NCBI RefSeq assembly: GCF_003722315.1
Contig: NZ_CP033580.1
Location: forward strand, 1,921,001 to 1,985,000
Length of the DNA: 64,000 nt
Origin: Thermoanaerobacter ethanolicus JW 200
Lineage (GTDB): Bacteria; Bacillota; Thermoanaerobacteria; Thermoanaerobacterales; Thermoanaerobacteraceae
Direction: 5' to 3'
Shown here: one piece after another, positions 3,252-45,530 of the stretch
Layout: each line of letters starts with the position of its first letter
How positions within the stretch are numbered: the first letter of the stretch is position 1
Position numbers and translations under genes: made by a program
Notes under the pieces: model-generated
Seen by the model: the letters and a program-made list of their open reading frames with translations, nothing else
Databases searched by the model: none
What the model was told of the DNA's origin: nothing

Positions 3252-4014
3252 TTAGCACACCCACAAATAAGTTTTTTAAAGCTTTAAGTTGTGTACTAAC
3301 ACCAGAGTTTATCACTCCAGAATTTGTTTCAATTACACAATCTCCTTTTTTTAATGATAAATCTTTTAAGATATTTACATCATCTAAAAACTCTATGTCT
3401 TTAAGAATTTTGTCTTTGTTTTTAATACAGTGTTCATAATCCTCTTCACTAACCCTTACCGTGACTTTGTCAAAAGCATTGTAGTTTTCCATTCCTTTTT
3501 TGATGAGGTTCAATATTATGTCTTTGTCCTCTTCCACATATTTACCTACAATTTTTTCTACCGCATGCAAAATTACATTTACAATATCATTTTCTGCTTC
3601 TTTATACATTCGTTGTTTTTCTTTAATAATCTCTTCTTTAATAGTCTTTGCTTCTTCTATTATAGCTTTAGCCTCTTCTTCTCCTTTTTTGTATCCTTCT
3701 TGATATCCTGCAGTATATCCAGCTTGATAGCCCTTTTCTTTATACTCTTCTTCAATCTTCTTAGCTTTTTTCTCTACTTCTATTAAGATTTTTTCTACAT
3801 CTTCCTTAGTCTTCCTAAGTATCTCTTGCTGAACTTGTCTCGCCCTTTCTATTATTTTCTTTGCTAAATCCGCACTTTCTTTTTTTATATCCTCTCTTTG
3901 TTCTCTCAATTCAATTACTTTCTCCACTTTTTCTTTGTAATTGCCATTTTCCACAATTCTTAAAACCACGGGAGAGGAAAGATTTATTTCCCGTTGCTTA
4001 TATATCCTATACAA
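3244..4014 (-). CDS. fliH: Flagellar assembly protein FliH
   Basis: FliH binds and regulates FliI and tethers it to the C-ring. The 256-residue protein has a long charged coiled coil (about 30-165) containing glycine-spaced repeats, GYQAGYTAGYQEGYKKG, typical of FliH GxxxG segments, followed by a V-ATPase subunit E-like C-terminal domain ending near LKNLFVGVLNE. The start is a TTG at 4012-4014 that overlaps the fliG end by 8 bases, preceded by GGAGGGG inside fliG. Flanking fliG and fliI confirm the assignment, which by sequence alone would be less certain because the family is divergent. Confidence 0.88.
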   Translation of the reverse strand: MYRIYKQREINLSSPVVLRIVENGNYKEKVEKVIELREQREDIKKESADLAKKIIERARQVQQEILRKTKEDVEKILIEVEKKAKKIEEEYKEKGYQAGYTAGYQEGYKKGEEEAKAIIEEAKTIKEEIIKEKQRMYKEAENDIVNVILHAVEKIVGKYVEEDKDIILNLIKKGMENYNAFDKVTVRVSEEDYEHCIKNKDKILKDIEFLDDVNILKDLSLKKGDCVIETNSGVINSGVSTQLKALKNLFVGVLNE

Positions 4015-5025: not shown

Positions 5026-6546
5026 CTACTCTTCATTAAGCCATGTCCTAATTACCTGCACAACAAGTTCTGGCTTTTCTTTTATAAGTCTTTCTATCTG
5101 TTTTTTCTTTTCGTCCTTCTCAGAGAAATCTATTTCTTCGATAGGTTCTATAGGTTCTACAGTAGCTAAGACCTCCTGTTCAGCTGTAGTTAAAGAGGTT
5201 TCTTTTTTCTTCCTTCTCATCATAATAAGGAATAGTCCGCCTCCTAACACTAAAGCTGCTAATATAGCCCATACATACACTGGTACTCCCTTTGAAACTT
5301 TTGCCTGCTGCTGCATTGTCTTTAACAGGTCTTGGTTAAATTGTATTCCTTGAACCGATACTTTTACAAGAGAATCCCCTCCTGCAGCTTTTGTAACCAA
5401 GTCAGCAATTTGCTGTTTCATAGAATTATTAAGATTTTGATTTACAACAACCGCAACAGAAATACTTTCAATTTTCCCTTGAGCTTGAACAAGACTTGTC
5501 TTAATTTGATTTATTTCATAATTTATAGTAGTTTCTGTTCTACTGTAATCAGAAGTACCATTACCAGTCGTTGAAGCTACAGGAGGATTATTTGACGCAG
5601 TACCTGGTGAGCTTCCACCTTGTGTACCTGTGGCTTTTTCTTTAAGCTCTTGTATACTCCTTACAATTCCTTTATTGTCATTCCCTTGAACAGGCAAATA
5701 CTCTATAGTATCCTGCGTCTTTTTATCAAAATTTAAAGTAACATTTGCTCTTACAACTACATTACCTGGTCCAAACATTTGTTCTAACAATGTTTGAAGG
5801 CTGTTTTGTAAGTCTTCTTGAACTTTTTTTTGAAGAGCAAATTGAGTATTAGCATTTTCAGCAGTAGTATCACTTTCTGCAGTTAGAATTTTACCATTAT
5901 TATCAATTACAGTAACATTTTCAGGTTTTAAACCTTCTACGCTCTTAGATACAAAATCTATGATTCCCTTGACTTGCGAAGAGGATAAAGTCACACCTGG
6001 CTTTAAAGTTAGCATCACAGCCGCTGTAGCTTGATTAGTAGTATTTGAAAGTACAAAGGCATTTTGATCAGGTACTACGATATTGACAATAGCATCTTGC
6101 ACTCCATCTATAGTTTTTAGAGAATTTTGTATTTCATTTTGTAGAAAATACAAATACTTTTGTCTTCTCTCTTGGTCTGTTGTAGCAAGGGAGTTATTCA
6201 TAGCGTCTTGAAAGCTAAATCCCCCTTGTGGGATTCCTTCTGTAGCAAGTTTCATCCTCACCTCATCTTTGTATTGTGCAGGAACTAAAATTGTCGTCCC
6301 ATCGTTCGATATTTTATATGGAATCTTGAATTCGGTTTTTAATTTTTCAACTACCGCTCCTGCATCTTTTATACTTAGATCTGAATATAAAACTACATAA
6401 TTAGGCCTATTAACTATGTAAACTAATAAAGAAATGCCTATAAAAAGTAAAATAGCAATAATTCCTAACTGTATCTTTTGTTTCTTATCAAACTTATTCC
6501 AAAAGTTTGTCAGTTGTTCTCTAAAATTGGCAATGAAGTCTGGCAT
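5026..6546 (-). CDS. fliF: Flagellar MS-ring protein FliF
   Basis: FliF builds the MS ring, the membrane-embedded base of the flagellum that houses the export apparatus. The 506-residue protein has a first membrane helix at about residues 26-45 (LGIIAILLFIGISLLVYIV), a YscJ/FliF ring-building domain (VVLYSDLSIKDAGAVVEKL and following), a second domain with a low-complexity Gly/Ser/Thr/Asn stretch near 310-335, and a second helix at about 425-446 just before an acidic FliG-binding tail. It begins with ATG at 6544-6546 and lies between fliE and fliG. Confidence 0.97.
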   Translation of the reverse strand: MPDFIANFREQLTNFWNKFDKKQKIQLGIIAILLFIGISLLVYIVNRPNYVVLYSDLSIKDAGAVVEKLKTEFKIPYKISNDGTTILVPAQYKDEVRMKLATEGIPQGGFSFQDAMNNSLATTDQERRQKYLYFLQNEIQNSLKTIDGVQDAIVNIVVPDQNAFVLSNTTNQATAAVMLTLKPGVTLSSSQVKGIIDFVSKSVEGLKPENVTVIDNNGKILTAESDTTAENANTQFALQKKVQEDLQNSLQTLLEQMFGPGNVVVRANVTLNFDKKTQDTIEYLPVQGNDNKGIVRSIQELKEKATGTQGGSSPGTASNNPPVASTTGNGTSDYSRTETTINYEINQIKTSLVQAQGKIESISVAVVVNQNLNNSMKQQIADLVTKAAGGDSLVKVSVQGIQFNQDLLKTMQQQAKVSKGVPVYVWAILAALVLGGGLFLIMMRRKKKETSLTTAEQEVLATVEPIEPIEEIDFSEKDEKKKQIERLIKEKPELVVQVIRTWLNEE

Positions 6547-43567: not shown

Positions 43568-44047
43568 TTATCTTGAAAATTTTTCTATTAATTTTTGAGC
43601 CACAATATCAGGCACAAACTCAGAAAGACAACCGCCAAATTGTGCAATTTCTTTTACTACACTGGAACTTAAATATCCATACTTTGCATTAGTCATTAAA
43701 AAAATAGTTTCAACAGAAGGGTTTAATTTTTTATTGATTAGCGCCATTTGGAACTCATATTCAAAATCAGATACCATTCTTAAGCCTTTTATTATAGCAT
43801 TAGCATTGACTTTTTTAGCATAATCTACCAATAAACCATCAAAATAATCAATCTCTACATTAGGAATATCATAAGTTACCGCTTTTAAAAGCTCTACCCT
43901 TTCTTCCACTGTAAATAAAGGCTTTTTCGACGGATTTAAAAGCACAGCTACAATAAGCTTATCAAACAGATTTGCTCCTCTTTTTATAATATCAATGTGT
44001 CCATAGGTAACTGGATCAAAACTCCCTGGATAAATTGCAGTTTTCAT
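43568..44047 (-). CDS. coaD: Phosphopantetheine adenylyltransferase
   Basis: CoaD makes dephospho-CoA from 4'-phosphopantetheine and ATP. The 159-residue protein starts [20 protein letters not shown] with the nucleotidyltransferase TYGH motif, then [20 protein letters not shown] and [17 protein letters not shown]. The length is normal. Its ATG overlaps the rsmD stop (ATGA), the common rsmD-coaD coupling. CoaBC of the same pathway is at the right edge of the window. Confidence 0.98.
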
Positions 44048-44604
44048 ATTTCCTCCTTATAAAATGATAATATCGTCTCCCCATATTTATTTTCTCTTAT
44101 CTTTACTAAATTTCCATACCTTTCTCTTATTTTATCATTTTTATGGTGTTCTGCTATGATAATGCCGTCTTCCTTTAAAACTTTAGCCTCTCCAAGCTTT
44201 ATAAGAGTTTTTTCGGCAAGGTTTTGATAATAAGGGGGATCTAAAAATATTATATCAAACTTTGTGTTATTTTTGTCTAATATTTCAATAACTTTCAACA
44301 CATCTCGGTGAAGTATTTTAGCAAAAGGTATTAAATTTAATTCAGCTACATTCTCCCTTATGCATTTTATGCTTTTTAAGCTTTTATCTACAAAATAGCA
44401 AAACTGGGCCCCTCTGCTTAATGCTTCGATGCCTATATTACCTGTACCCGCAAATAAATCCAAAAAAATACTTCCTTCTATTTTGTTCATCAATATATTA
44501 AACAGCGATTCTTTAACTCTATCAGCAGTTGGCCGCACTTCATCGCCTTCTAAAGATTTTACCTTTCTTCCCTTTAACTTACCTGCTATCACTCTCAAAG
44601 ACAT
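44044..44604 (-). CDS. rsmD: 16S rRNA (guanine(966)-N2)-methyltransferase RsmD
   Basis: RsmD (YlbH in Bacillus) methylates G966 of 16S rRNA with S-adenosylmethionine. The 186-residue protein has [37 protein letters not shown] for the cofactor and the catalytic LDPPYYQN. I chose ATG 44602-44604; a GTG three codons earlier is less likely. It has its own promoter at 44624-44653 and is divergent from the CsfG-like RNA. Confidence 0.95.
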
Positions 44605-44623
44605 TACCCCCACTTCAACAATT

Positions 44624-44659: not shown

Positions 44660-44691
44660 TGTATAAAATTTTTTCAAAATGGCAAATAATA
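44660..44691 (+). promoter_or_regulatory. Forespore-type (sigma-F/sigma-G) promoter of CsfG-like RNA
   Basis: GTATA (44661-44665) is 16 bases from GCAAATAATA (44682-44691). The B. subtilis sigma-F consensus as I recall it is GHATR-N15/16-GGHNANAHTR; only the second G of the -10 differs. The overlapping sigma-G pattern also fits approximately. The predicted start is at about 44697. Confidence 0.6.
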
Positions 44692-44696
44692 TTTAT

Positions 44697-44810
44697 GGGA
44701 ACAGAAATTTCCCCAAAATTCTTCCTTCAATTTCTCCTCTCCCAGTCCAGGTAGGCAACTACCTGGATTAAAATTTTAAAAGGGCAATCGCAAGGACTGC
44801 CCTTTTTTAT
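44697..44810 (+). ncRNA. csfG: Probable CsfG sporulation small RNA
   Basis: The transcript of about 110 bases would begin GGGAACAG. In order it has a 5' hairpin GGGAA/TTCCC (44697-44713), a pyrimidine-rich single-stranded stretch with TTCTCCTCTCCC (about 44731-44743) that could pair with Shine-Dalgarno sequences, a perfect 9-base-pair hairpin TCCAGGTAG-GCAA-CTACCTGGA (44746-44767), and a terminator AAAAGGGCA / TGCCCTTTT (44778-44806) followed by TTATTAT. CsfG is known in endospore formers as a forespore RNA encoded between ylbG and ylbH; ylbH is rsmD, which lies directly beside this locus. A 30-codon frame inside it lacks a ribosome binding site. I rely on structure, promoter and position, not on an alignment. 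Confidence 0.7.
44778..44806. terminator. Bidirectional terminator of csfG-like RNA and SASP gene 1
   Basis: The 9-base-pair stem AAAAGGGCA / TGCCCTTTT has an 11-base loop. The T-run is strongest on the plus strand (CCCTTTTTTATT), ending the small RNA, while on the minus strand CCCTTTTAAAATTTT can end the SASP transcript. Confidence 0.75.
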
Positions 44811-44821
44811 TATAAATTATT

Positions 44822-45049
44822 TTATTTCCAAGTTCCTTTGCTGGCCATCTGGCTTTCTGCCATTTGTATCATTTTTCTTACCATATGGCCACCTACAGCA
44901 CCGCAATCTCTTGATGTGAGATTGCCCCAGTAGCCATCAGCTGGAGGAGTTATTCCTAATTCATTAGCTATCTCATACTTCCATTGGCTCATAACCTGTT
45001 TTGCTTCTCTTACCACAAGAGGATTCTTAGTTTCTGATCCTACAGCCAT
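44822..45049 (-). CDS. Alpha/beta-type small acid-soluble spore protein (copy 1)
   Basis: SASPs coat and protect DNA in the dormant spore and are degraded by GPR protease at germination. The 75-residue protein starts MAVGSETKNPLVV and has the family core KYEIANELGI, the GPR cleavage area around YEIA, and GNLTSRDCGAVGGHMVRKMI. The single cysteine next to GAVGG is a notable substitution in the usual GxxGG motif context. I set the start at ATG 45047-45049 after GGAGGTGA. It differs from copy 2 at only three residues. Confidence 0.96.
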   Translation of the reverse strand: MAVGSETKNPLVVREAKQVMSQWKYEIANELGITPPADGYWGNLTSRDCGAVGGHMVRKMIQMAESQMASKGTWK

Positions 45050-45080
45050 TTTAATCACCTCCTAAATCATGTTCCATTAT

Positions 45081-45499: not shown

Positions 45500-45530
45500 T
45501 GTATAAAAGTGATTGAAATGGCAAATAATA
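45500..45530 (+). promoter_or_regulatory. Second GTATA / GCAAATAATA box facing the degV 3' end
   Basis: GTATA (45501-45505) and GCAAATAATA (45521-45530) are 15 bases apart on the plus strand. Both boxes are identical to those of the CsfG-like promoter. It points into the 3' end of degV on the antisense side. No hairpin with U-tract is evident shortly downstream, so the product, if any, is unclear. Confidence 0.35.

Follow-up and report, generated by a model that had tools for sequence, protein, structure and literature searches.

The feature at 44661-44813 of the window (i.e. the whole 64,000-nucleotide stretch of DNA that was analysed) is almost certainly the csfG gene of this thermophilic anaerobe. 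CsfG is a small RNA widely conserved among spore-forming bacteria and made inside the developing spore, and while the family itself is already known, the copy described here is a true member of it with a plausible structural variant. We base this identity, which an earlier note on the same DNA had put forward, on the match to an independently built plus-strand model, on the position of the element divergent from rsmD, on a promoter lying on the right strand and on the co-occurrence of the element with sigma-G across genomes.

Direct reading of the sequence places the csfG unit on the plus strand, in the gap between rsmD and a SASP gene, and all the parts that the earlier note had named for such a unit were recovered there (Table 1), among them the perfect 9-bp hairpin and the strong U-tract terminator. 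Transcription is predicted to start near 44697, and GGGAACAGAAAUUUCCCC lies between the promoter and the core. As the ends of the transcript were deduced from the positions of promoter and terminator, its length of roughly 110-120 nt and its intrinsic terminator (both traits of csfG members) are predictions from sequence alone; a further such trait, a promoter sequence of the sigma-F/sigma-G type, is present on the small RNA strand. The plus-strand fold of csfG (-39.4 kcal/mol) is far stronger than those of shuffled sequences (-21.7 +/- 3.2 kcal/mol, z -5.55), which, together with the recurrence of core and promoter in the order, argues that the structure is not a product of chance. On the plus strand the hairpin of the terminator contains an A-C mismatch, where the minus strand has a G-U pair, and for this reason it probably also ends the convergent SASP transcript, so that the terminator would be shared by the two genes. 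The SASP gene keeps this position beside csfG in all loci of the order, and in most of the loci examined csfG and rsmD are direct divergent neighbours (here with the edge of rsmD at 44613 and the promoter from 44661).

Table 1. Features of the csfG locus (positions in the window)
Feature	Position	Strand	Basis or remark
Forespore-type promoter, GTATA (44661-44665) N16 GCAAATAATA (44682-44691)	44661-44691	+	sequence reading; conservation
csfG small RNA gene (transcript predicted to be about 115 nt long)	44697-44811	+	R1 model; RF00516 (antisense)
Order-specific 5' mini-hairpin GGGAA...UUCCC, overlapping the UUUCCCC motif	44697-44713	+	without covariation within the order
CU-rich conserved core UUUCCCCAAAAUUCUUCCUUCAAUUUCUCCUCUCCC, with three C-rich stretches	44708-44743	+	
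C-rich stretch UUUCCCC of the core	44708-44714	+	
C-rich stretch CUUCCUUC of the core	44721-44728	+	
C-rich stretch UUUCUCCUCUCCC of the core	44731-44743	+	
Perfect 9-bp hairpin UCCAGGUAG-GCAA-CUACCUGGA, GCAA loop	44746-44767	+	
Intrinsic terminator, probably bidirectional (hairpin 44778-44806, U-tract to about 44811)	44778-44811	+	
rsmD (ylbH), divergent neighbour	44044-44613	-	PF03602, E 1.3e-57
Alpha/beta-type SASP gene, convergent with csfG (ATG probably at 45049)	44822-45058	-	PF00269, E 6.7e-28

A covariance search with the Rfam model had been named in the earlier note as a check on this identity, and its outcome depends on strand and threshold. The family RF00516 ('ylbH leader') is the CsfG element modelled on the opposite strand; a scan of the window at the gathering threshold reported nothing, while at an E-value threshold the model aligned end to end with the minus strand (44813-44693, 41.4 bits, E 3.2e-7). 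The match is therefore there, but below the gathering cut-off of 50 bits, and a routine Rfam scan stays silent on this csfG copy. We discarded the null result at the gathering threshold as evidence against CsfG, since it is misleading owing to the strand and the cut-off. On the CsfG strand, a sequence model (R1) trained on 22 loci, all from outside this bacterial order, gave a single match in the window (44677-44769, plus strand, 39.6 bits, E 1.2e-11) and one clear match in the whole genome (E 5.6e-10; next best 0.013). Standard Rfam annotation thus assigns CsfG to the wrong strand and overlooks divergent copies, from which we would expect many Clostridia genomes to have the RNA either unannotated or annotated wrongly.

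Taken at its name, the Rfam family would make the element a cis-acting leader of ylbH/rsmD on the minus strand, as could be suggested by the strand on which RF00516 scores here and by the fact that in most loci the element immediately precedes rsmD. The conserved promoter, however, is found on the other strand: of 156 distinct loci, 135 have an upstream GTATA on the strand of csfG (shuffles 29 +/- 5) and 13 have one on the opposite strand, which identifies the plus strand as that of csfG and bears out the forespore-type promoter claimed earlier, and a promoter-like string occurs in 88 of these loci (2.4 expected). Within the order, the GTATA...GGNAAATAATA-type promoter and the 23-nt core CTTCCTTCAATTTCTCCTCTCCC occur in 24/24 genomes, the promoter having been found in the 17 order loci scanned and being visible in all 24. 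Furthermore, the element has the same orientation as rsmD in three loci (L037, L129 and L177) and two others (L120 and L163) have no rsmD match within the 8-kb locus, so that in none of these can it be an rsmD leader. Northern blots in B. subtilis detected transcription only from the strand opposite ylbH, and the transcript was equated with CsfG (PMC3574147, 2013). Of 135 loci from outside the order, 100 have a 3' hairpin that is more stable when folded from the plus strand; the longer csfG region had no such plus-strand advantage. We regard a leader of rsmD as largely refuted and scarcely credible. Elsewhere in the window (45501-45530, plus strand) we observed a second promoter, GTATA-N15-GCAAATAATA, nearly identical to that of csfG, which lies between a second SASP gene and degV and points antisense into degV; it is kept in the ten loci of the genus that were scanned and was not found in the sister genera.

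The RF00516 search recovered csfG in 24/24 genomes of the order and, at E<=0.001, in 145 of the 398 genomes of a phylum sample, in which a 24-nt csfG core pattern (up to two mismatches allowed) was present in 167 genomes; the reversed control of this pattern had 0 matches in every genome listed. All of these core-bearing genomes are among the 340 with sigma-G (scored as present if the best TIGR02850 E-value was <1e-60), as compared to 0 of the 58 without it (Fisher p 6e-16, in a test that counts genomes, which are not independent events). In at least five families whose members otherwise have both sigma-G and the core (f14, f21, f24, f52 and f83), the absence of the one coincides with that of the other. 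The many sigma-G genomes without the exact core indicate that CsfG is either not universal or has diverged in them. Across spore-formers the csfG core is nearly invariant. Some of this invariance is built in, as an exact match to the core was the criterion by which many of the loci were picked; neither the flanking UUUCCCCAUAAG nor the promoter played a part in that choice.

Several loci of this collection are unusual in their copy number or provenance. One genome (G123) has two different csfG copies, of which one lies by rsmD (L219, 4017, plus strand) and the other by a SASP gene (L220, 1735, minus strand), as if an rsmD-csfG-SASP cluster had been split with duplication. In Paenibacillus alkalitolerans (L117) the core pattern matches at 3413-3436 and 6260-6283 (both minus strand), one of the matches being a partial second core that lies 2.8 kb away from the intact csfG, near an apparent copy of the recG 3' end. 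Bins with the labels Acetobacteraceae and Desulfovibrio also contain csfG-rsmD loci (L133 and L134), which probably stem from misbinned Firmicutes contigs. We did not retain as extra copies the second core matches in genome G067 (which look like overlapping contig ends), nor, as a plasmid-borne copy, the near-perfect blastn match H43, as it belongs to an 807-kb B. velezensis record that is probably chromosomal sequence. H44, looked up among the weaker blastn matches to Bacillus plasmids, was rejected because it lies inside a coding gene.

Copies of the csfG core were also observed in three viral contigs (L181, about 5939-5962, minus strand; L182, 1466-1489, plus strand; L183, 4-27, plus strand). 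In L181 and L182 the core lies about 100 bp after a phage-type tyrosine integrase gene and is flanked by a stem, both arms of which differ together between the contigs; L183 begins inside the csfG core and continues with phage genes. Genes for tRNA and tmRNA serve as prophage attachment sites, and the sequence of these contigs suggests that csfG may be used in this way, or else that a phage may carry a CsfG-like RNA. A search of the Bacillus-like family f74 (80 genomes, E<=1e-60) found no integrated prophage of this type. The phage matches obtained by blastn were not accepted as csfG copies, most of them falling in capsid genes of Enterococcus phages.

The core of the order reads CUUCCUUCAAUUUCUCCUCUCCC, and elsewhere it mostly reads CUUCCUCCGGUUUCUCCUCUCCC. 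Ensemble folding predicts that outside the order UUUCCCC forms a loop while CUUCC is held in a stem, and that in the order UUUCCCC is partly paired and CUUCCUUC is left open; in these models the 5' hairpin of the order appears to bury UUUCCCC and to expose CUUCCUUC, the reverse of what is predicted elsewhere. The 5' hairpin that the earlier note had claimed can be read (GGGAA/UUCCC), but single-sequence minimum free energy folding pairs GGGA with a partner other than that of the mini-hairpin, and since the hairpin shows no variation within the order, covariation can neither support nor test it. Throughout the family UCUCCUCUCCC is predicted to be mostly unpaired, the hairpins around it differing between clades; in L028 and L029 the equivalent of the post-core hairpin runs straight into a U-tract of its own. 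One might speculate that CsfG has been rewired in the order, with UUUCCCC hidden, CUUCCUUC exposed and UUUCUCCUCUCCC held constant, such that a conserved partner in the forespore would dock at the constant part and the switchable stretches would determine which mRNAs are targeted in each clade; we think it unlikely that this proposal holds. A thermophile CsfG with a different predicted 5' structure offers a natural variant that helps to separate the fixed from the flexible parts of the RNA.

According to the literature up to 2022 no CsfG target was known (PMC4409812, PMC8216469 and PMC9147052), and our literature search returned neither a CsfG target nor any report of an obvious sporulation defect; a paper of 2025 mentions in passing, citing one of 2011, that CsfG regulates sporulation mRNAs, and leaves the target unnamed (PMC12456014). 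Judging from sequence and conservation, we propose that sigma-F and/or sigma-G would transcribe csfG in the forespore, on the plus strand and from the promoter GTATA-N16-GCAAATAATA, and that the product would be a non-coding RNA some 115 nt long, ending at the terminator shared with the SASP gene. The RNA would then most likely act in trans: its unpaired C-rich stretches, chiefly UUUCUCCUCUCCC and in this copy CUUCCUUC as well, would base-pair via short seeds with several forespore mRNAs at their purine-rich translation-start regions, reducing the translation or the stability of these mRNAs in the manner of RoxS and FsrA. Hfq would probably help this pairing: CsfG co-immunoprecipitates with Hfq in B. 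subtilis (PMC3574147), and the present genome has an Hfq gene (E 1.4e-30). We hold the account as a whole (csfG gene, forespore transcription and trans pairing with several mRNAs) to be rather likely, and put the pairing mechanism at about even chances.

The pairing itself was assessed on 470 predicted start regions from a 464-kb genome sample (simple ORF calls, not exhaustive). The core can pair with Shine-Dalgarno sequences, as had been claimed, but on average it does so no better than shuffled cores (mean -15.4 versus -15.2 +/- 0.7 kcal/mol), so that composition alone explains most of the affinity; the top 20 start regions pair slightly more strongly (-28.3 versus -26.2 +/- 1.0 kcal/mol, z about -2). 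In view of this mean we rejected generic anti-Shine-Dalgarno silencing as the cause of core conservation. A 13-nt complement (G-U pairs allowed) was absent from genome G013 save for the antisense of csfG itself, and across seven genomes the pattern was not clearly enriched over its reversed control, which makes it unlikely that one long duplex, formed with a universal partner, explains the near-invariance of the core.

These results bear on whether CsfG might mainly bind a conserved forespore protein through its CU-rich core, as a decoy or scaffold, with mRNA pairing being secondary. The near-invariance of the core despite unexceptional pairing with mRNA starts, the missing universal long complement and the predicted single-strandedness of UCUCCUCUCCC amid clade-variable hairpins would all suit such a partner. 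On the other hand, part of that invariance stems from the choice of loci, the known partner Hfq has no obvious need for so fixed a sequence, and C-rich small RNAs of Firmicutes are known to act by pairing (PMC4409812). We regard the conserved protein partner as a serious rival, if on balance an improbable one.

The earlier note had suggested that the fit beside two SASP genes might help to define the target, and this was not upheld. The two SASP start regions pair with the core at the median of the 470 genes, on which ground we dismissed the SASP mRNAs as targets, and most Bacilli csfG loci have no SASP match nearby. CsfG could still act locally on the SASP gene, by convergent transcription and complementary 3' ends, given that in the order and in several other Clostridia-type loci the SASP gene converges on csfG and probably shares its terminator; but with the core equally conserved in the Bacilli loci without a nearby SASP match, and with the median pairing of the start regions, we find such a local role very improbable. 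Short-seed pairing with several mRNAs stays our best guess.

For comparison, the CsfG of Bacillus subtilis (reportedly described by Marchais et al. in 2011) likewise lies beside rsmD (ylbH) and divergent from it, with a forespore-type promoter and a terminator, and shares the three C-rich stretches and a near-identical UUUCUCCUCUCCC core. It differs in that the YCRR of the core is UCAA here and CCGG there, in that a SASP gene adjoins csfG here, and in its 5' hairpin, which here is a GGGAA/UUCCC mini-stem over UUUCCCC, whereas in B. subtilis a longer stem buries CUUCCUCC. The RF00516 ylbH leader is the same sequence element (41.4 bits here), taken on the antisense strand as a cis leader. RoxS (RsaE) and FsrA are unlike CsfG in their regulators (ResDE and Fur) and in their loci, and neither the RoxS/RsaE nor the FsrA Rfam model is among the 22 matches (E<=10) of a permissive scan of the region. 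Like them, however, CsfG possesses several single-stranded C-rich stretches able to pair with purine-rich mRNA starts; RoxS and FsrA act by mRNA pairing, and a similar mode has been proposed for CsfG (PMC4409812 and PMC8216469).
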